Origin: a virus
IMG/VR virus record: IMGVR_UViG_3300047548_000496
Span: 27,903 to 91,902 of that record
Reading direction: 5' to 3' (one strand)
DNA length: 64,000 nt
Positions 5,682-34,196 of this stretch are shown piece by piece. The notes under the pieces are model-generated. The model was not told the DNA's origin, ran no database searches, and saw nothing but the letters and a program-made list of their open reading frames with translations. Every line of letters begins with the position of its first letter. Position 1 is the first letter of the stretch. The translations under genes and the position numbers were made by a program.

Positions 5682-6275
5682 ATGGCAACTAAAAAAGAAC
5701 CAGTTTCAAAAGAAGAAAAACTAGAAAAACAAGATATAAACTTGTTTGAAGTTCTTGCGGCATTGGATAGAAAAGATTACACATATTATGATTCACTGTC
5801 AGAAGAACAACAAAAGAAAATTGTGCCGTTTATGCTTACTAAATGGATGAGCGCAATCAAAGGTAGTGAAGGTCTTTCTAGATATTATGTTATGAGTACA
5901 AATGAATACGCAAACAAATATCTATTCAATGAATATGTATCTAAACATCCTAAATTGCAATGGCTGATGTTGTGCGCTAGCAGTCCTAGCTTAGGAAAAC
6001 AATTTCATCAGTGGATACCTGAAATCAGCGTAAAAGTTTCTAAATTAGAAGAAGCGGCTAATTTAAAAAGCGTAAAAGAATATTACAAAAAGATTTATCC
6101 CAAAGCCAGTGATGATGATATTGGTGCAGTGAGTGAAGCATTTGTAGAAGAACAAAAACGAAAAAGATATTTGGCTCAACTGTTTCCCGAATTAAAAGTT
6201 GCAGACATAGAAGTACTTAACCAGATTACAACAGATGAACAAATTGCTCAGTACGAAAGAGACCGTGGAAACTGA
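5682..6275 (+). CDS. probable clamp-loader small subunit, gp62-like
   Basis: 197 aa starting at the ATG at 5682; an in-frame TTG at 5676 overlaps the previous gene and is less likely. After a lysine-rich N-terminus comes NLFEVLAALDRKDYTYYD, then V-P-F-M-L-T-K-W-M and MSTNEYANKYLF, then SLGKQFHQWIP. This order (short helix, P-F-hydrophobic, hydrophilic -N-x-Y-x-N, WLML, LGK..HQWI) is that of gp62 from T4-like phages (187 aa in T4). gp62 joins four gp44 subunits to load the sliding clamp. The gp44 gene lies about 52 kb away here, whereas in T4 the two are adjacent. Assignment is by remembered pattern. Confidence 0.65.
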   Translation: MATKKEPVSKEEKLEKQDINLFEVLAALDRKDYTYYDSLSEEQQKKIVPFMLTKWMSAIKGSEGLSRYYVMSTNEYANKYLFNEYVSKHPKLQWLMLCASSPSLGKQFHQWIPEISVKVSKLEEAANLKSVKEYYKKIYPKASDDDIGAVSEAFVEEQKRKRYLAQLFPELKVADIEVLNQITTDEQIAQYERDRGN

Positions 6276-6963
6276 CAAACCGTTGAAATATGGTTGTGAT
6301 TTTTGCGGCAGAGAATTTGCTAGAGAATCAACAATAGCAAAACATATTTGTGAATACAAACAAAGATGGATGAATAAAGACCTACATGGTAATCGTATAG
6401 GTTTTCAGTCATGGGTTCAGTTTTACAAAAAGAATACTAACTCTAAGAAAACTAAGACCTACGAAGAATTCATCAAGTCAGCATATTACACTGCATTTGT
6501 AAAATTCGGAACGCACTGTGTAGATATAAACGCTATCAACATACCAAGATATGTTGATTGGTTGTTGAAAAATCAAATTAAGATTGACACATGGACAAGT
6601 GATACAACTTACACAAAGTATCTGATTGAATATCTTAAAACAGAAGATCCATTAGATGGTATTGCCAGAAGTGTAGAGGCTACGATTAAGTTGGGAGAGA
6701 ATGCAGGCATATTACCCAAAGATGTTTTACGTTATGGCAATACAAATCGCATTTGCTATGAAATTACTAAGGGCAAGATTAGTCCATGGATGCTTTATCA
6801 AAGCAACAGTGGTATTGAATTTTTAAGCAAAGTCAATGATATTCCAGAACAAGCTAAAATAATAATGGATTATATTGATCCAGAACAATGGGCATTAAAA
6901 TTTCACAGAGAACCAGAAAATGTCAGAACAGCCAAAGAGATCCTCAACGCTGGCGGGTATTAA
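6265..6963 (+). CDS. C2H2 zinc-finger-containing phage protein
   Basis: The N-terminus carries one finger, C-D-F-C-x(10)-H-x3-C (Y-G-C-D-F-C-G-R-E-F then T-I-A-K-H-I-C), followed by about 190 residues of helical protein (SAYYTAFVKFGTHCVDINAI, RYVDWLLKNQIKIDTW, GKISPWMLY). This layout is conserved in aquatic T4-like phages, but I know no proven function. A GTG at 6265, 3-4 nt after AAAGAGA, gives 232 aa and an 11-nt overlap with the gene before; an ATG at 6235 would overlap by 41 nt. DNA or RNA binding through the finger is likely. Confidence 0.7.
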   Translation: METDKPLKYGCDFCGREFARESTIAKHICEYKQRWMNKDLHGNRIGFQSWVQFYKKNTNSKKTKTYEEFIKSAYYTAFVKFGTHCVDINAINIPRYVDWLLKNQIKIDTWTSDTTYTKYLIEYLKTEDPLDGIARSVEATIKLGENAGILPKDVLRYGNTNRICYEITKGKISPWMLYQSNSGIEFLSKVNDIPEQAKIIMDYIDPEQWALKFHREPENVRTAKEILNAGGY

Positions 6964-7174
6964 TGTTGAGCACGATTATCGTGTAAGGATACCTTTTAAT
7001 CTAATACATGACATAACGACAGGTCAAAATACTTGGAATGAATCCTGCGCTAAAGCAATAGAAATGTTTGGGTTGCCGGGTGACAAATATTCATGGAGAT
7101 TCACAAAAGAATATATTGAGTTTTGGTTCCGTGAAGAAAAAGATGCAATGATGTTTGAACTATGTTGCGGATAA
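6920..7174 (+). CDS. small LRW-family protein, member 1 (84 aa)
   Basis: First and most degenerate gene of the tandem array. The family pattern is visible: an acidic helix (ESCAKAIEMFG), then a hydrophobic strand, then FREEKDAMMFELCCG, where other members end F-x-LRW. The ATG at 6920 overlaps the upstream gene by 44 nt, so a shorter start is possible. Function unknown. Confidence 0.6.
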   Translation: MSEQPKRSSTLAGINVEHDYRVRIPFNLIHDITTGQNTWNESCAKAIEMFGLPGDKYSWRFTKEYIEFWFREEKDAMMFELCCG

Positions 7175-7578
7175 AAGCTAGAATTCGTAAATGGAAAGCC
7201 GAGCGCAAACTCAAAAAGAGTGGGTATGAGAATTGGCGTCAATATAAACACAACCGTGATTCTGGAGTAGAACAGTATGCCCAATGCGTAGAAGATTTCT
7301 ACCTTGATTACCCATATGTCTACGCTTGTAAAAACCCAACCCATTACGCATATCAATGTTTAGATGATTTTGGTCTCGGTGTTCAGCGTTTTGGGTTCGA
7401 TGAAATGAACGATTGGTGTCACGAAAAGATAAGGTGGAACTTTCGTTGTGATATGCATAGGGTTTATGAGAACCAATGGGGAAGAATGGAGTTGAATGAT
7501 ATCGGCGGATATGATATAATATACTTTGCATTCAAGCGTGAACAAGATTTTACACACTTCTTACTAAGATGGGCTTAA
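7162..7578 (+). CDS. small LRW-family protein, member 2 (138 aa)
   Basis: The longest member. It has a basic N-terminal extension (MLRIKARIRKWKAERKLKK) and then the family domain: FDEMNDWCHEKI, a strand region, and the ending FAFKREQDFTHFLLRWA. It overlaps member 1 by 13 nt and member 3 by 10 nt, which implies translational coupling. The extension is unique in the array and could bind nucleic acid; that is inference only. Confidence 0.7.
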   Translation: MLRIKARIRKWKAERKLKKSGYENWRQYKHNRDSGVEQYAQCVEDFYLDYPYVYACKNPTHYAYQCLDDFGLGVQRFGFDEMNDWCHEKIRWNFRCDMHRVYENQWGRMELNDIGGYDIIYFAFKREQDFTHFLLRWA

Positions 7579-7817
7579 AGAAAATCTACATGATGTATCA
7601 CACACCAAGAACAATAGAAGTTCTTAATTGGTTTTATGATACGTTCGGTGAACCACAAGAATGGAGTGCAATAGTATTGGAGCCTGTTCAATTGAAACAT
7701 GGTTATCAATGGGCTAATGGTAAACACCATGACGGTGACTGGGACGAATTTGATACGGTTCCTGTAATTTGGTGTACAGAAAAAGCGTTTATGATGTATT
7801 CTTTGAGGTGGTTATAA
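7569..7817 (+). CDS. small LRW-family protein, member 3 (82 aa)
   Basis: Contains the helix-FG-P element (IEVLNWFYDTFGEPQEWS), a loop with GKHHDGDWDEF, and the ending CTEKAFMMYSLRWL. Start ATG at 7569 inside the end of member 2. Function unknown; the same fold as its neighbours is expected. Confidence 0.72.
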   Translation: MGLKKIYMMYHTPRTIEVLNWFYDTFGEPQEWSAIVLEPVQLKHGYQWANGKHHDGDWDEFDTVPVIWCTEKAFMMYSLRWL

Positions 7818-8068
7818 TGGAACAAGGTAGCTTTACATACAAGACTGAAAAATATTACGGTAGCAAGAAAAATGTCCACACCATTTCTTGGAAGGGGAAG
7901 GGCGAAGTTGATAGCGCAGAGATTCAGAAATGGTGCATTGACAATTTCGGGCAACCTGGCTACCAAGAAGAACACGGTGAAGCACGATGGCTAGACCATA
8001 CTGATTTTGGTGAAATCTTTTTGTGTAAAGATGAAGACTTGACCTTCTTCTTACTCAAGTGGACATGA
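7817..8068 (+). CDS. small LRW-family protein, member 4 (83 aa)
   Basis: Starts at the ATG of a TAATG junction (7817); longer in-frame versions run through the preceding gene. Pattern: SAEIQKWCIDNFGQPGY, an acidic strand, then CKDEDLTFFLLKWT, with K in place of R in the terminal motif. Function unknown. Confidence 0.73.
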   Translation: MEQGSFTYKTEKYYGSKKNVHTISWKGKGEVDSAEIQKWCIDNFGQPGYQEEHGEARWLDHTDFGEIFLCKDEDLTFFLLKWT

Positions 8069-8298
8069 GAAGAATTCATTTTGAAGGCCCTACATGGCAT
8101 GACACCAAACCCGGTTGGCACGAAATCGAGTTGAACCTAAACGGGCAACCAAAACGCTATCGTGAAATTATAGAATGGCTGTATAATAGTATAGATAAGC
8201 CCGAAAGGCATTGTAGGTGGTTTGAAACTAGTGTAGGAATTAAAATCAAGTTTAGGTATGAACGGGACTATATTTTGGCAATGTTGAGGTGGAAATGA
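8065..8298 (+). CDS. small LRW-family protein, member 5 (77 aa)
   Basis: ATGA overlap with member 4 fixes the start at 8065. Contains YREIIEWLYNSIDKP, then RWFETSVGIKIKFRYERDY and the ending ILAMLRWK. Function unknown. Confidence 0.73.
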   Translation: MRRIHFEGPTWHDTKPGWHEIELNLNGQPKRYREIIEWLYNSIDKPERHCRWFETSVGIKIKFRYERDYILAMLRWK

Positions 8299-8648
8299 GA
8301 GTAAGCATTTGGTATCGCACTGAATTACAGCAACCTAGTAAGTCAGGTTACTATCTAAGTTATCGTGGATGGGGCATCGGTGGCAAGGCTGATGGTGATA
8401 GCGATTGGGGTTATGTCTATTACGATAAGAAAAAAAATCAATGGAGTGACTACAAAAGCGAGGATAGTCACTATGCTATTGTCTATTACTGGACTGATGC
8501 TACACCTGATGATTGGACAGACCAAGACCCTCCTAGCGTCAGCCTACACATACTAAAAGCACAACATAATGTAGCCCTGGAAGATGCGTGGAAAAAAGTT
8601 GTAGAAGCAATTGACCAATACAACATGATTAAAGAGTTGGTGAAATGA
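8295..8648 (+). CDS. DUF551-like small protein inside the array (117 aa)
   Basis: Starts at an ATGA junction (8295). It differs from its neighbours: P-S-K-S-G-Y-Y-L-S-Y-R-G, then VYYDKKKNQW, then YYWTDATPDDW. This order resembles the DUF551 type of short phage and enterobacterial proteins (P-x-x-G-Y-Y-L ... W ... V-x-x-W-x-P). The C-terminal 45 residues form a helix. Function unknown. Confidence 0.65.
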   Translation: MRVSIWYRTELQQPSKSGYYLSYRGWGIGGKADGDSDWGYVYYDKKKNQWSDYKSEDSHYAIVYYWTDATPDDWTDQDPPSVSLHILKAQHNVALEDAWKKVVEAIDQYNMIKELVK

Positions 8649-8947
8649 AACAAGGCGATATCATTAAACTTATTGAAGAAATTGCCGATGGGTTAGCAAA
8701 AAAGATTAAACATGATAAAGCAATGTTTGAGATAAAAACAAATACTAAGTATAAGTTCAGCCGTAACTGGTATCAAGCATATTTCGACCTTAAAGACTAT
8801 GATGCTGTAGATGAATGGTGTGAACAACAGTTTGGAAAGCATCCTAAGAATCCTGATGCTTGGAGTCGCTGGTGGCACAAGTTTGAGGACAGTATTCTGT
8901 TCCGTGATGAAAAGGACTATGTGTTGTTCACGTTGAGGTGGAGTTGA
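8645..8947 (+). CDS. small LRW-family protein, member 6 (100 aa)
   Basis: ATGA start at 8645. An N-terminal helix (IIKLIEEIADGLAKKIK) precedes the family domain: YDAVDEWCEQQFGKHPKN, AWSRWWHKFEDSILF, RDEKDYVLFTLRWS. It is one of the clearest family members. Function unknown. Confidence 0.74.
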   Translation: MKQGDIIKLIEEIADGLAKKIKHDKAMFEIKTNTKYKFSRNWYQAYFDLKDYDAVDEWCEQQFGKHPKNPDAWSRWWHKFEDSILFRDEKDYVLFTLRWS

Positions 8948-9225
8948 TGAAATTATTTTATAGTAGTGCTGGGGCAAGCAATCCTAGCTTTGTGTATAAA
9001 TTCAAAGTTAAAAAGTGTACAACTGAAATGTATGAGTGGGCTAGCAATTATCCCGAAAAAGGCCCCTTCAGCCGTTGGTATGTAGAATGGAATACTATGA
9101 AAATGGATAGCGGCAAAAATTACGATGTAATACAGATTGAACACAGCGAAGCAGCCAAAATATTCAAAATTGCATTCGCGGGTGAATATGAAGATATCAC
9201 TATGAAAGAATATAGGCTTGATTGA
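8947..9225 (+). CDS. small LRW-family-related protein, member 7 (92 aa)
   Basis: TGATG junction sets the start at 8947. The middle keeps TTEMYEWASNYPEKGPFSRW, like the helix and W-S-R-W of member 6, but the C-terminus has diverged (EAAKIFKIAF, then YRLD). It is either a relative that lost the LRW end or one extended past it. Confidence 0.62.
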   Translation: MKLFYSSAGASNPSFVYKFKVKKCTTEMYEWASNYPEKGPFSRWYVEWNTMKMDSGKNYDVIQIEHSEAAKIFKIAFAGEYEDITMKEYRLD

Positions 9226-9436
9226 AGTCAAACTGATAGATAAACTTCCTATTGAGTTTTTGGTCATTGTAAATGAACTCAAAGAAAAGGGATATGTTCA
9301 AGGCGTAGACTTTGACTTTGCCTATCATCCACCCAAATTTGATGACTTTTCAGGTGATGCAGTCTATAATAGATGTGTAATCTTTACTTTTTATAAAGAA
9401 GAATTAGCAACATGGTTCAGTCTAATATACCATTAA
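9218..9436 (+). CDS. small LRW-family-related protein, member 8 (72 aa)
   Basis: Probable TTG start at 9218, overlapping member 7 by 8 nt. IEFLVIVNELKEKGYVQG and the ending FTFYKEELATWFSLIYH follow the family pattern (strand, acidic residues, aromatic end) without LRW. Confidence is lowered by the rare start. Confidence 0.55.
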   Translation: MIEVKLIDKLPIEFLVIVNELKEKGYVQGVDFDFAYHPPKFDDFSGDAVYNRCVIFTFYKEELATWFSLIYH

Positions 9437-9687
9437 CAATAGATCAAGTAATCAAAGAGAAAGTCGATGAAATGCAAAAGGGTATCGACAATGATGTTAT
9501 GAGAGCCTGTTTAGTCGAAAGTGGCTGGACACAAGTAGAATTCTACTATACCAATAATAAACACGCAATTGATGTGCTAAATTGGATCGGTGACAATGTG
9601 AAAGAAAATCAGTGGTCACGGTTGAACAGTTACTTTGTATTCCGCAAGAAAAAAGATGCGGAGTGGTTCATGTTACGATGGCTATAA
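9412..9687 (+). CDS. small LRW-family protein, member 9 (91 aa)
   Basis: ATG at 9412 within the end of member 8. After a 45-residue helical lead comes HAIDVLNWIGDNVKENQWSR and YFVFRKKKDAEWFMLRWL, a clear family ending. Function unknown. Confidence 0.7.
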   Translation: MVQSNIPLTIDQVIKEKVDEMQKGIDNDVMRACLVESGWTQVEFYYTNNKHAIDVLNWIGDNVKENQWSRLNSYFVFRKKKDAEWFMLRWL

Positions 9688-9688
9688 A

Positions 9689-9910
9689 ATGGAATATACT
9701 ATAGTCGAAGATGGGTGTGACTGCTATCCTTGGCATGAAGTTTATGCTTTGTTGCCGCATAAAACTGTGACTGGTAAGAGAGTTTGGTTACAAAAAGTGT
9801 ATAAGCGTAAAGTGTGGGTTGTATGGGGCACAGGATTTCATATGGAACCAGAAGTGCAATATGCTACTGCATTTGATTTATTAGTTTATGACAACAAGTA
9901 TAATCCTTAA
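9689..9910 (+). CDS. small basic protein, paralogue of the 34002 gene (73 aa)
   Basis: Starts at the ATG 2 nt after the stop of member 9. It does not belong to the LRW family. It shares PW-E, a K-R-x-W-L-x-K-x-V-Y-x-R core and a Y-x-x-x-F-D-L-L end with the 64-aa protein at 34002-34196, so the two are paralogues. The core looks like a small beta sheet. Function unknown. Confidence 0.65.
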   Translation: MEYTIVEDGCDCYPWHEVYALLPHKTVTGKRVWLQKVYKRKVWVVWGTGFHMEPEVQYATAFDLLVYDNKYNP

Positions 9911-10109
9911 ACATGGGTTAGGTGCCCGTGAAGAACAATGGTTAGCAAAGAATGTGGGGCCTAGAATGCATTATATTCACAATAGCATAGGTGGACAGGG
10001 CTGGATAGCTAAACGTGAATGGACTCCTGGAATGGTTAGTAGAGAATGGGTTCTGACATTTGAAGATGAACGCTATGCTACATTTTTTAGATTGATGTTT
10101 CCAGAATGA
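9888..10109 (+). CDS. small LRW-family-related protein, member 10 (73 aa)
   Basis: ATG at 9888 overlaps the gene before by 23 nt. It contains EEQWLAKNVGP and the ending WVLTFEDERYATFFRLMFPE, which matches the family's strand, acidic pair and F-x-L ending with LMF for LRW. Function unknown. Confidence 0.62.
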   Translation: MTTSIILKHGLGAREEQWLAKNVGPRMHYIHNSIGGQGWIAKREWTPGMVSREWVLTFEDERYATFFRLMFPE

Positions 10110-10372
10110 ATATATCTAAAGACTTTCAGGATTATGATGACGATGGTCCAGAAATGGAATTTCGAAAAAACCGCTGGAACTATTGGTCTGCTCTTAAACA
10201 AGCACGCCAAGAATATATGAAAACAAAAATAGAGTTTGATGCGTATGAGTTTGAAGATTGGCTCGAAGCAATATATGGTATAAAGATGAACATCGTCAAC
10301 GGTAATATCACAGATGGTTATAAAATTATGGATGAAGCCAAATACACATTTTTTCTATTGAAATTCCAATGA
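10106..10372 (+). CDS. small LRW-family-related protein, member 11 (88 aa)
   Basis: ATGA junction. A 40-residue charged lead is followed by AYEFEDWLEAIYGIKM and MDEAKYTFFLLKFQ, the family helix and a variant LKF ending. Function unknown. Confidence 0.66.
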   Translation: MNISKDFQDYDDDGPEMEFRKNRWNYWSALKQARQEYMKTKIEFDAYEFEDWLEAIYGIKMNIVNGNITDGYKIMDEAKYTFFLLKFQ

Positions 10373-10713
10373 ATAACAATCATCCATTTAAGATCACACA
10401 GTACGATAGATTTATCACTGTGACATGGCCTAATATGAATGATGTCAGGGAAAAAGTTACTAAATTAAAATTAATAGAGGCAGCATTTCAACAATCCAAA
10501 GCAGTTGAAGTAGGCTTTGTGTTAGAACTCAACAATAAAGAATATGATATCATGTGGATCAATTCTTTTCTTAGTTTGACTGAAAATGATTATGTGAATT
10601 ATATACAAGATATGTATGTTATTAAGGGTGTTGCATATAGAGAGAAAACAGATGCAGAGAAGTTCTACAATTGGTTAGAAGGAAAGTATATATGGCAATT
10701 ACTCAAGGAATAA
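10369..10713 (+). CDS. small array protein, possible LRW-family relative, member 12 (114 aa)
   Basis: ATGA junction at 10369. KITQYDRFITVTWPN and a long helix precede MYVIKGVAYREKTDAEKFYNWL, which recalls the strand, acidic residues and aromatic helix of the family, with an extra 12 residues after it. Family membership is uncertain. Confidence 0.58.
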   Translation: MNNNHPFKITQYDRFITVTWPNMNDVREKVTKLKLIEAAFQQSKAVEVGFVLELNNKEYDIMWINSFLSLTENDYVNYIQDMYVIKGVAYREKTDAEKFYNWLEGKYIWQLLKE

Positions 10714-10970
10714 ACGGAACATTCGTTTCATACAGCGAAATGGATGACCCAATCTATTTTCGTAAATTCAAAAAGACCGTTCCACTTGACGGATCATGGG
10801 AAACCCGTGTATTCTATGAGATAACTAAGTTTCCATTGGGTCGCAAAGAAACAGAACAATGGCTAGAAGACCATTATGGTAAGTTGAAATATAGCGACAG
10901 TTGGTGGAAAACATTTAACGGTATATGTATGAATGAAAAGATATACATACACTACAAATTATTGGAGTAA
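10692..10970 (+). CDS. small LRW-family-related protein, member 13 (92 aa)
   Basis: ATG at 10692, 8 nt after AGAAGGA; a longer upstream frame exists but lacks a ribosome site. RKETEQWLEDHYGKLKYSD and WWKTFNGICMNEKIYIHYKL follow the family plan. It is the last gene of the array and is followed 2 nt later by the exonuclease gene. Confidence 0.62.
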   Translation: MAITQGINGTFVSYSEMDDPIYFRKFKKTVPLDGSWETRVFYEITKFPLGRKETEQWLEDHYGKLKYSDSWWKTFNGICMNEKIYIHYKLLE

Positions 10971-10972
10971 GT

Positions 10973-11533
10973 ATGGCGGCGGATATAATGATTGATATTG
11001 AAAGTTTGAACACAACACCTGATTGTGTTATTCTATCTATCGGCGCGGTTAGATTTGATCCTCGAGGCAACGGTGTTGTTGAACGATTAGAACTTAAACC
11101 TACAGTCGAGGATCAAACTGAAATATATAATAGGAGTATTAACGATGATACAATCAGATGGTGGTCAGAACAAAATCCTGCTGCCCTTGAAGAAGCATTC
11201 AGCGAAGAAGGTAGAATCCCATTTGCCGAATGTATGGAGATCCTATACAAGTTTTGTTGGAATCGCCGTGCTGTGTGGAGTAATGGTGCCCCCTTCGATT
11301 TGGTCGTTATGGAACATGCTTGGAGACAAACAAGCGATAAACCTAATCCCATCCCCTGGCCTTTCTGGACAATGCGAGACACAAGAACACTGTGGGAAAT
11401 CGCAGGAGTCAAACTCAAAGACGGAGGACACGTTACAAGTCACAAGGCTGTAGAAGATGCTGAACGACAAGCCATCGTTGTTCAACAAGCATACATGAAA
11501 TTAATGAAAGCAGGATTGGCAGAATCACGATGA
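10973..11533 (+). CDS. DEDD 3'-5' exonuclease, DexA / Rv2179c-like
   Basis: 186 aa. Exo I is MIDIES with the D-x-E pair near residues 8-10, followed by SIGAVRFDPRG. Exo II is NGAPFDLVVMEHAW, and exo III is SHKAVEDAERQA with the H and D. This is the RNase-H-fold exonuclease group that contains T4 DexA and the Rv2179c-like exoribonucleases. It degrades DNA or RNA from the 3' end with two metal ions. Ribosome site GGAG lies 6 nt upstream. It ends in an ATGA overlap with a zinc-binding protein gene. Confidence 0.88.
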   Translation: MAADIMIDIESLNTTPDCVILSIGAVRFDPRGNGVVERLELKPTVEDQTEIYNRSINDDTIRWWSEQNPAALEEAFSEEGRIPFAECMEILYKFCWNRRAVWSNGAPFDLVVMEHAWRQTSDKPNPIPWPFWTMRDTRTLWEIAGVKLKDGGHVTSHKAVEDAERQAIVVQQAYMKLMKAGLAESR

Positions 11534-11736
11534 ATGTCGAAAGAGAAAACACTTGGAGAACATTGCAAGGTCTTAAACCTATACAATCTTGGAAATGTAG
11601 ACTTGGATGGCATCGTTGGACTAATTATGAAATTCACGATAGGTCACATGATTTTATGGGACCAGTTGCAAGATGCCATTGTGCTGATTGCGGATTACCT
11701 AGAATAGAGCCTCCCTACACAAAGAGTAAAAAATGA
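11530..11736 (+). CDS. small zinc-binding protein (68 aa)
   Basis: Contains W-K-C-R-L-G-W-H-R-W near residues 21-30 and C-H-C-A-D-C-G near 48-54, which together supply C/H and CxxC zinc ligands. The layout resembles DUF1660-type phage proteins (C-x-x-G-H-x-W ... C-x-x-C-G). Function unknown. It overlaps both neighbours by ATGA. Confidence 0.7.
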   Translation: MNVERENTWRTLQGLKPIQSWKCRLGWHRWTNYEIHDRSHDFMGPVARCHCADCGLPRIEPPYTKSKK

Positions 11737-12305
11737 AACTAGATGCTGATATTGACATTGACTTTGGTGACAGAGATAAGTTGTTGAAACTTATTGCTCA
11801 TACATCTGCGGCTATGCGTAATGTTAAACCCATGCGTAAACATAACACGGGTGTCTATGTTACGGACATTCCGTATGATTCAGTAAATGACATGGCTAGT
11901 ATTGATTACACCGAGGCTGAAAAACGTGGTTATTTTAAACTAGACTTGTTAAATGTTCATGTTTACGAGCAAGTACGTGATGAACAGCATTTAGTTGAAT
12001 TGATGCAAGAACCAGACTGGTCTAAATTAAATGATAAAGAATTTGTTGAAAAACTGATTCACTTAGCGAATCATTATAATTCTATACAAAAAATGCCTGA
12101 ACCCATTGATAGTATCCCTAGACTAGCAATGTTCTTAGCCGCTATTCGTCCAGCTAAAAAGCATTTGATTGGATTACCCTGGAAAGAAGTCGCAAAGACT
12201 ATATGGGATAAAGGTGATGATGGGTACAGTTTTAAGCGTTCGCATGCCGTTGCTTACGCACATTTGGTAGTAGTTCATATGAATCTACTTACGGCATCCT
12301 CTTAA
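11733..12305 (+). CDS. mini DnaE-like protein: catalytic palm part of Pol III alpha
   Basis: 190 aa that read as a condensed C-terminal palm of bacterial DnaE. It opens with DADIDIDFGDRDKLLKLI, matching the DnaE P-D-x-D-x-D-F motif with the first two catalytic Asp (around D8 and D10). Then come HNTGVYV (DnaE H-x-G-G-V-x-I), G-Y-F-K-L-D-L-L-N with the third Asp (D71), A-A-I-R-P (DnaE A-L-x-R-P-G-P) and SFKRSHAVAYA (168-176; DnaE F-N-K-S-H-x-x-A-Y-A). The finger inserts, beta-binding and OB regions are missing. The preceding DnaE motif GRGS is in another gene at 55654. Activity is inferred, not shown. Confidence 0.8.
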   Translation: MKLDADIDIDFGDRDKLLKLIAHTSAAMRNVKPMRKHNTGVYVTDIPYDSVNDMASIDYTEAEKRGYFKLDLLNVHVYEQVRDEQHLVELMQEPDWSKLNDKEFVEKLIHLANHYNSIQKMPEPIDSIPRLAMFLAAIRPAKKHLIGLPWKEVAKTIWDKGDDGYSFKRSHAVAYAHLVVVHMNLLTASS

Positions 12306-33786: not shown

Positions 33787-34005
33787 ATGGCTCCTTGGGA
33801 TGAAGAACTGTACTTGTTCACTCCTGAGGAGTACGAACAGTTACCTGACGGTATTGAACTAACATCAATTAGTGGTGATTCCAAAATCAAGGGCAAAGAT
33901 TACATTGACATGGATACACGATTCGGGCACATCGCCTATGGCGTGAAAGATCCATGGAATCATGAACTCAAAGACTTGTTCTTGATTTTCAAAATCAAAC
34001 AATGA
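33787..34005 (+). CDS. conserved hypothetical protein (72 aa)
   Basis: Starts at ATG 1 nt after the MazG stop. Reads APWDEELYLFTPEEYEQLPD, then KGKDYIDMDTRFGHIAYGV. The K-G-K-D-x-I-D-x-D-T-R-x-G-H-x-A-Y-G block is strongly patterned and likely conserved, but I know no function. It overlaps the next gene by ATGA. Confidence 0.68.
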   Translation: MAPWDEELYLFTPEEYEQLPDGIELTSISGDSKIKGKDYIDMDTRFGHIAYGVKDPWNHELKDLFLIFKIKQ

Positions 34006-34196
34006 GATATGGATATACTCCCAGAAAGACAGTAGTACATCCCTGGGAGCGTTGGTTTGCGTGGTATCCTGTCAAAGTGCATGGAAAACGTACATGGTTA
34101 AAGATAGTATACCGTCGTTGTATTAATACCTATGTTGATATGGAGGACTGGGAACGATACGAATATGGAAATGTATTTGATTTGCTAAAGGACTGA
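34002..34196 (+). CDS. small basic protein, paralogue of the 9689 gene (64 aa)
   Basis: Contains HPWERWFAWYPVKVHGKRTW, L-K-I-V-Y-R-R and Y-G-N-V-F-D-L-L, the same frame as the 73-aa protein at 9689-9910. Function unknown. It is the last gene before a hairpin and the gp13 late promoter. Confidence 0.65.
   Translation: MRYGYTPRKTVVHPWERWFAWYPVKVHGKRTWLKIVYRRCINTYVDMEDWERYEYGNVFDLLKD

Follow-up and report, generated by a model that had tools for sequence, protein, structure and literature searches.

We found that a run of 15 small overlapping viral genes consists mostly of members of a large and uncatalogued protein family, and that the codons for the C-terminal Leu-Arg-Trp (LRW) of this family usually appear to have a dual use, ending one protein and providing the translation start signal for the gene that follows. 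This dual use, as read from codon statistics, is a new finding. The DNA analysed, called the window here, comprises 64,000 nucleotides (G000:C1:27903-91902) of a 91,902-base viral contig, and the replicative helicase of this phage has its nearest relatives in the jumbo myoviruses Paride/PA5oct/MIJ3 and Atu_ph07. The array is formed by consecutive plus-strand open reading frames (ORFs) of 72-138 aa (A1-A15) spanning positions 6920-10970. It is bounded by U1 (phrog_11058), an orthologue of Paride_0016 (37% identity) that overlaps A1 by 44 nt, and by the exonuclease-like D1 (table 1). The junctions between A1 and A15 range from +1 to -25 nt, with ATGA overlaps at several of them and no real gaps; an earlier note had described 13 tiny overlapping genes, and was right about the overlaps but not about the count. 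The start of A4 was set at the ATG at 7817, the longest ORF beginning with a TTG at 7769, and other possible ATG starts were found for A5 (8065), A6 (8295), and A8 (8947).

Table 1. Genes of the array and its flanks (window positions; HH, probability in the leave-group-out test)
Gene	Position	Strand	Description	Evidence
U1	6235..6963	+	Left flank of the island; conserved, function unassigned	phrog_11058, E 1e-53
A1	6920..7174	+	Family member, degraded ending LCCG	HH 96%
A2	7162..7578	+	Family member, N-terminal extension, ending FLLRWA	HH 98%
A3	7569..7817	+	Family member, ending SLRWL	HH 93.5%
A4	7817..8068	+	Family member, ending LLKWT	HH 99%
A5	8059..8298	+	Family member, ending MLRWK	HH 97%
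A6	8289..8648	+	Small non-member, no known function	HH 0.2%
A7	8645..8947	+	Most conserved family member, ending TLRWS	HH 99.5%
A8	8938..9225	+	Probable family member, ending lost	HH 33%, own-orthologue fold
A9	9218..9436	+	Probable family member, ending SLIYH, TTG start	HH 74%
A10	9412..9687	+	Family member, ending MLRWL	HH 98%
A11	9689..9910	+	Non-member	HH 0.3%; weak phrog_7749 match, E 5.5e-4
A12	9888..10109	+	Family member, ending RLMFPE	HH 93.5%
A13	10106..10372	+	Probable family member, ending LLKFQ	HH 49%
A14	10369..10713	+	Assigned neither in nor out of the family	HH 9%
A15	10671..10970	+	Probable diverged member, ATG start 10692	HH 31%
D1	10973..11533	+	3'-5' exonuclease-like, right-hand cargo of the island	phrog_255 exonuclease, E 6e-40
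D2	11530..11736	+	68 aa, part of the island, no known function	Site comparison with Paride
D3	11733..12305	+	Right flank of the island, Paride_0017 orthologue	47% identity

Pairwise similarity inside the window was marginal, the best pairs (A2-A10 and A5-A7) reaching E values of about 1e-5. A scan with A7 led to 16 IMG/VR loci, and the FxLRW family was defined in this analysis starting from that gene. Iterating a profile from A7 alone, we gathered 166 members, every one of them on the sense strand of these loci or of the contig that holds the window, and the 816 minus-strand ORFs of this DNA gave no hit. For each array gene, the profile was then rebuilt without the tested orthologue group and the HH probability was scored. 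By this leave-group-out test A1, A2, A3, A4, A5, A7, A10, and A12 were firm members (93-99%) and A8, A9, A13, and A15 probable ones; A6 and A11 (0.2-0.3%) were outsiders, as were the flanking control genes (0.2-1.1%). Orthologues of A8 retain the family motif, ending in MFKLTWGG at locus L009 and MFLLTWGG at L012. A Pfam search with A6 gave no match, and A11 is related to another ORF of the window (34002-34196). Profiles and predicted fold together support common descent for most of the array genes. Thus, the shared plan that the earlier note had seen is beyond chance, and its claim of paralogy holds for the eight firm and probably for four further members but not for the unrelated A6 and A11. 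The endings it had listed were also recovered: LRW or LKW in A2-A5, A7, and A10, LMF in A12, LKF in A13, LIY in A9, and none of these in the others. The acidic character it had given to the plan is not a general feature, the net charge of the domain having a mean of -1.2 (sd 3.4). With an average charge near zero, DNA mimicry was dismissed.

The family domain is predicted to fold as beta-alpha-beta-beta-alpha and to end with FxLRW. This was obtained from AlphaFold2 models, made without templates, of A7 (pLDDT 78) and of A8, which was modelled with its own orthologues only and gave the same order at modest confidence (pLDDT 67); the models thus came from different alignments, and they have many BFVD structural neighbours in common. 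The two checks proposed along with the paralogue claim, profile search and structure prediction, accordingly gave linked members and an agreeing order of the fold. A fold search of the PDB returned nothing above E 0.89 or Z 4.6, and in the comparison with RRM-, KH-, and ferredoxin-like domains the best Z was 4.6 over 55-58 residues. The most conserved residues of the profile (L72, W74, and F70) fall in the last helix, which would carry hydrophobic residues on two faces.

The family is new relative to Pfam, PHROGs, and NCBIfam, where a scan of 82 members found no fitting model and a single PUF hit (5e-4). The same 82 members matched 0 families among the PADLOC-DB models of anti-phage defence, and the diversity of their alignment precluded a pattern scan. 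Probing IMG/VR with the DNA sequence of the gene joint, TTYNNNTTGAGGTGGTCATGA, gave matches in at least 120 stretches; because this probe encodes F-x-L-R-W-S-stop, this count is not independent of the protein motif and indicates scale. Among 80 listed loci, 111 of 120 probe matches were the 3' ends of genes that the profile assigns to the family, and these loci (76 of them further IMG/VR loci) contain 477 family profile hits. The compared contigs come from metagenomes and may in some cases be fragmentary or composite. Among cultured jumbo phages, Phosso (Sinorhizobium meliloti) had 29 matches with the first profile and about 40 with the second, Atu_ph07 (Agrobacterium) five weak ones, and Paride and PA5oct (Pseudomonas aeruginosa PAO1) three members each, so that function is testable. 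The profile was not found in T4, P-SSM2, HTVC008M, RaK2, XacN1, XaC1, or SCTP-2. Other searches were nearly empty: the array region matched none of the named phages at the nucleotide level, tblastn with A1, A7, and the family consensus gave essentially Phosso alone, weakly, and bacterial and archaeal genome contigs yielded no relatives with A2 and A7, queries that detect close relatives only. A literature search, mostly outside subscription journals, found no paper on the FxLRW family. Hundreds of its genes in public viral contigs are "hypothetical" and without a family model.

The dual use of the LRW codons was seen in the choice of the Arg codon. In the first set, this codon was AGG in 69 of 79 members (87%) that have an ATG 7-14 nt further on but lack one in the motif itself; among the remaining Arg codons of these genes, AGG made up 85 of 763. 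With a downstream ATG given precedence in the count, AGG was found in 69 of 87. With one vote per cluster of related members AGG was still found in about 39 of 52 (P = 6e-24 vs. background), a statistical reading of Shine-Dalgarno (SD) function in which the protein and RNA levels of selection are not fully separable. An internal conserved Arg column, used as a control, had AGG in 7 of 50. The bias recurred in newly found members that the probe had not picked out (111/129, 86%, vs. 118/1431 elsewhere). Where the next ATG lies just downstream, AGG yields the SD sequence GAGGTGG (TTG AGG TGG xx ATG). Otherwise, the next ATG often lies within the Arg-Trp codons themselves, xG[ATG]G, and the Arg codon is then AGA or CGA, as forced by position. 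The Leu codon ended in G in 74 of 109 cases with a downstream ATG vs. 11 of 31, which extends the stretch matching the anti-SD. Within the array, A3, A5, and A7 place GAGGTG 3-6 nt before the ATGs of A4, A6, and A8, respectively; the A3 codons TTGAGGTGG would be the SD of A4, with GAGGTG 6 nt upstream of its ATG, and the ATG of A3 in turn sits within the Arg-Trp codons of A2, AG[ATG]G. Many other genes of the window have a weak SD or none. Many Phosso members are uncoupled, and there FxLxW is kept and the Arg is often replaced, by Thr or Ala. Leu and Trp would thus be kept for the protein, and Arg in part, at least, for the gene that follows. The LRW codons would then be a clean case in which protein sequence and ribosome-binding site are co-selected. 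The array has the features of a coupled operon, namely stop-start overlaps and SDs in the upstream coding region. T4-type late promoters (TATAAATA) were fewer than expected by chance across the window and none occurred inside the array, and promoter-like sites were near chance level.

The history of the array was investigated by comparison with related loci. The order of the flanking genes and of most window members, A1 included, is conserved in L007, L008, L010, and L014, where other family members are interspersed. Identity of the array orthologues was mostly 60-89%, vs. 59-89% for the flanking genes. Their dN/dS values, mostly 0.06-0.3 and rough because synonymous sites are near saturation in many genes, show at the level of sequence comparison that these orthologues are under purifying selection. 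For 154 of 163 members the best-matching gene belonged to another phage, and for none was it the adjacent gene; the number of members per locus ranged from about 6 to 21. Judged from these matches, the duplications are old, and what proceeds fast is the turnover of members, by gain and loss, at a single site. Neither the serial tandem duplication nor the fast, arms-race-like divergence that the earlier note had proposed agrees with these data, since neighbours are not the closest relatives and the orthologues diverge like their flanks. The low dN/dS and flank-like divergence, in speaking against a fast arms race, also count against an accessory kit. In Paride the corresponding block reads UvsW-U3-U2-U1-D3-m140-o268-primase-helicase. 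The U1 and D3 orthologues are separated there by 1 nt, so by this comparison the array, D1, and D2 form an island at a single site in the replication block, due either to gain here or to loss in Paride. D1 and D2 had no match among the Paride genes at that site.

Based on these results, we hypothesized that this variable island encodes accessory proteins that bind partners and are expressed from a single coupled operon, a reading that we favor at a little short of even confidence. Its members would be small alpha/beta binding modules of about 75 residues, encoded on one polycistronic message. Termination-reinitiation, which is aided by SDs inside the upstream gene (PMC6728339), would carry ribosomes from gene to gene, and the members would be made together. 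The hydrophobic FxLRW helix, as its sequence pattern suggests, may be a common packing or pairing surface, the rest being free to vary and each member binding its own partner. Rather than being built into the virion, the set might then act on host proteins as an accessory kit, either for takeover or for evading defences; for the array, anti-defence and host-takeover roles are both possible. The binding-protein reading is based on the conserved fold and last-helix residues, the variable remainder, the changing membership, and the annotation of PA5oct, in which ESI-MS/MS notes are attached to several neighbouring genes but to none of the three members (a hint that these are not virion proteins). 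Because the start signal of the next gene lies in the last codons of each gene, members could join or leave as units, and the dual-use joints would offer a route for adding gene cassettes without breaking the operon. With somewhat more reserve, we suggest that the family motif is kept at two levels, protein surface and next start signal, and that such self-joining cassettes form changeable sets of binding proteins at a fixed site. The members of Phosso are scattered over many sites and often uncoupled, so the array is not needed for function.

Other explanations of the array were considered. The paralogues could be subunits of one heteromeric assembly that pair together in proportions set by translational coupling. 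The continuous overlaps with dual-use start signals would suit such an assembly, as would the enrichment of overlapping gene pairs for heteromeric complexes (PMC10666635), the conserved and probably two-faced last helix, and one natural two-domain fusion (L101:2651-3206). However, the wide range of member numbers is odd for a fixed complex and scattered single members occur, and we regard this assembly as unlikely, though deserving of serious weight. Gene neighbourhoods gave a new lead, by which the family might comprise adaptors or clients of a phage chaperone pair, MoxR AAA+/vWA. This pair has been described in jumbo phages of group 2.2 (PMC7824862), with a presumed role in virion assembly. 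In the window's contig and in the related records G001, G002, and G003, the vWA gene is followed at 0.3-0.8 kb by a single-copy member; members stand beside the pair in L019, L180, and Phosso, and in Atu_ph07 they occur within about 4 kb of it. Yet neighbourhood alone is weak ground, about 29 kb separate the big array from the pair in the window's contig, and the vWA gene of Paride has no credible member beside it; a link to the chaperone pair is accordingly improbable.

The predicted fold resembles an RRM without its last strand, which together with low-Z matches to KH and RRM domains and the location of the array in the replication block could indicate small nucleic-acid-binding regulators of RRM-, KH-, or ferredoxin-like type. 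Every Z was below 5, level with unrelated folds, the net charge is near zero to acidic, and no conserved aromatic or basic RNA-binding motif was recognised, which makes such regulators quite improbable. That LRW is conserved as a mere by-product of the ribosome-binding site, without a role in the protein, would account for the strong AGG bias where an ATG follows. It is nevertheless very hard to believe: the Leu is kept using all six codons, LRW is also kept in uncoupled members, and the Phosso members without a coupled next gene keep the Trp within FxLxW.

Several known systems are comparable. Bacillus phage G has a lineage-specific expansion of a zinc-ribbon protein to about 35 copies (PMC7824862), and likewise represents a small domain at tens of copies in a single jumbo phage with unproven function. 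Unlike the zinc ribbon, the FxLRW profile lacks zinc-ligand Cys/His pairs, having one Cys column (35%), and its members form overlapping arrays with dual-use ends. The uncharacterised proteins of Phosso, Atu_ph07, and Paride/PA5oct belong to the same family by profile, but are genome-scattered or in small clusters, often uncoupled, and carry FxLxW or a degraded motif. The overlap lengths, ATGA/TGATG joints, and SDs within the upstream gene are like those of termination-reinitiation systems (PMC6728339; PMC10666635). In contrast to those systems, the SDs of the array appear to be built from the family's own conserved C-terminal codons, gene after gene.

The same array, with 100% identity across the proteins compared, was found in a 139-kb record (contig IMGVR_UViG_3300043399_000524), in which the same phage is assembled to a greater length. 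Despite its location within the coupled array, A9 starts with TTG (window 9218), and its orthologue in the related contig L008 is also preceded by the TTGAGGTGG ending, without a nearby ATG. A relative of A11 was found elsewhere in the window as a small ORF (E 6.5e-5); judging from sequence similarity, these two genes constitute a second small family, unrelated to the FxLRW family, of which the window holds two or more copies.

Where the array ends on the right, three related contigs carry different genes at a site close to the place of the exonuclease-like gene D1 in the window. These genes are possibly variable cargo; the TctC-like gene might alternatively be an assembly artefact.

Coordinates of the features discussed
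Feature	Location	Context
A11 relative, small ORF	window 34002-34196	
ROK-family gene	L008:11060-11896	array right end, related contig
Radical-SAM-like gene	L016:4254-5489	array right end, related contig
TctC-like gene	L010:12408-13331	array right end, related contig
MoxR-type ATPase (phrog_1297) and vWA/DUF2201 (phrog_1314) pair	L002:4098-7629	window's contig, upstream of window
Two-domain ORF, 184 aa	L101:2651-3206	
tRNA-Pyl (annotated), anticodon CTA	L020:940-1015	Phosso

One family member stands alone 0.4 kb past the MoxR/vWA pair and ends in ELKWS, and its orthologues occupy the same position in three other viral loci (L178, L179, and L183). The ORF in L101 carries the family domain twice in a single chain. 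The tRNA-rich region around the Phosso tRNA, which is perhaps an amber suppressor, also contains FxLRW family members.
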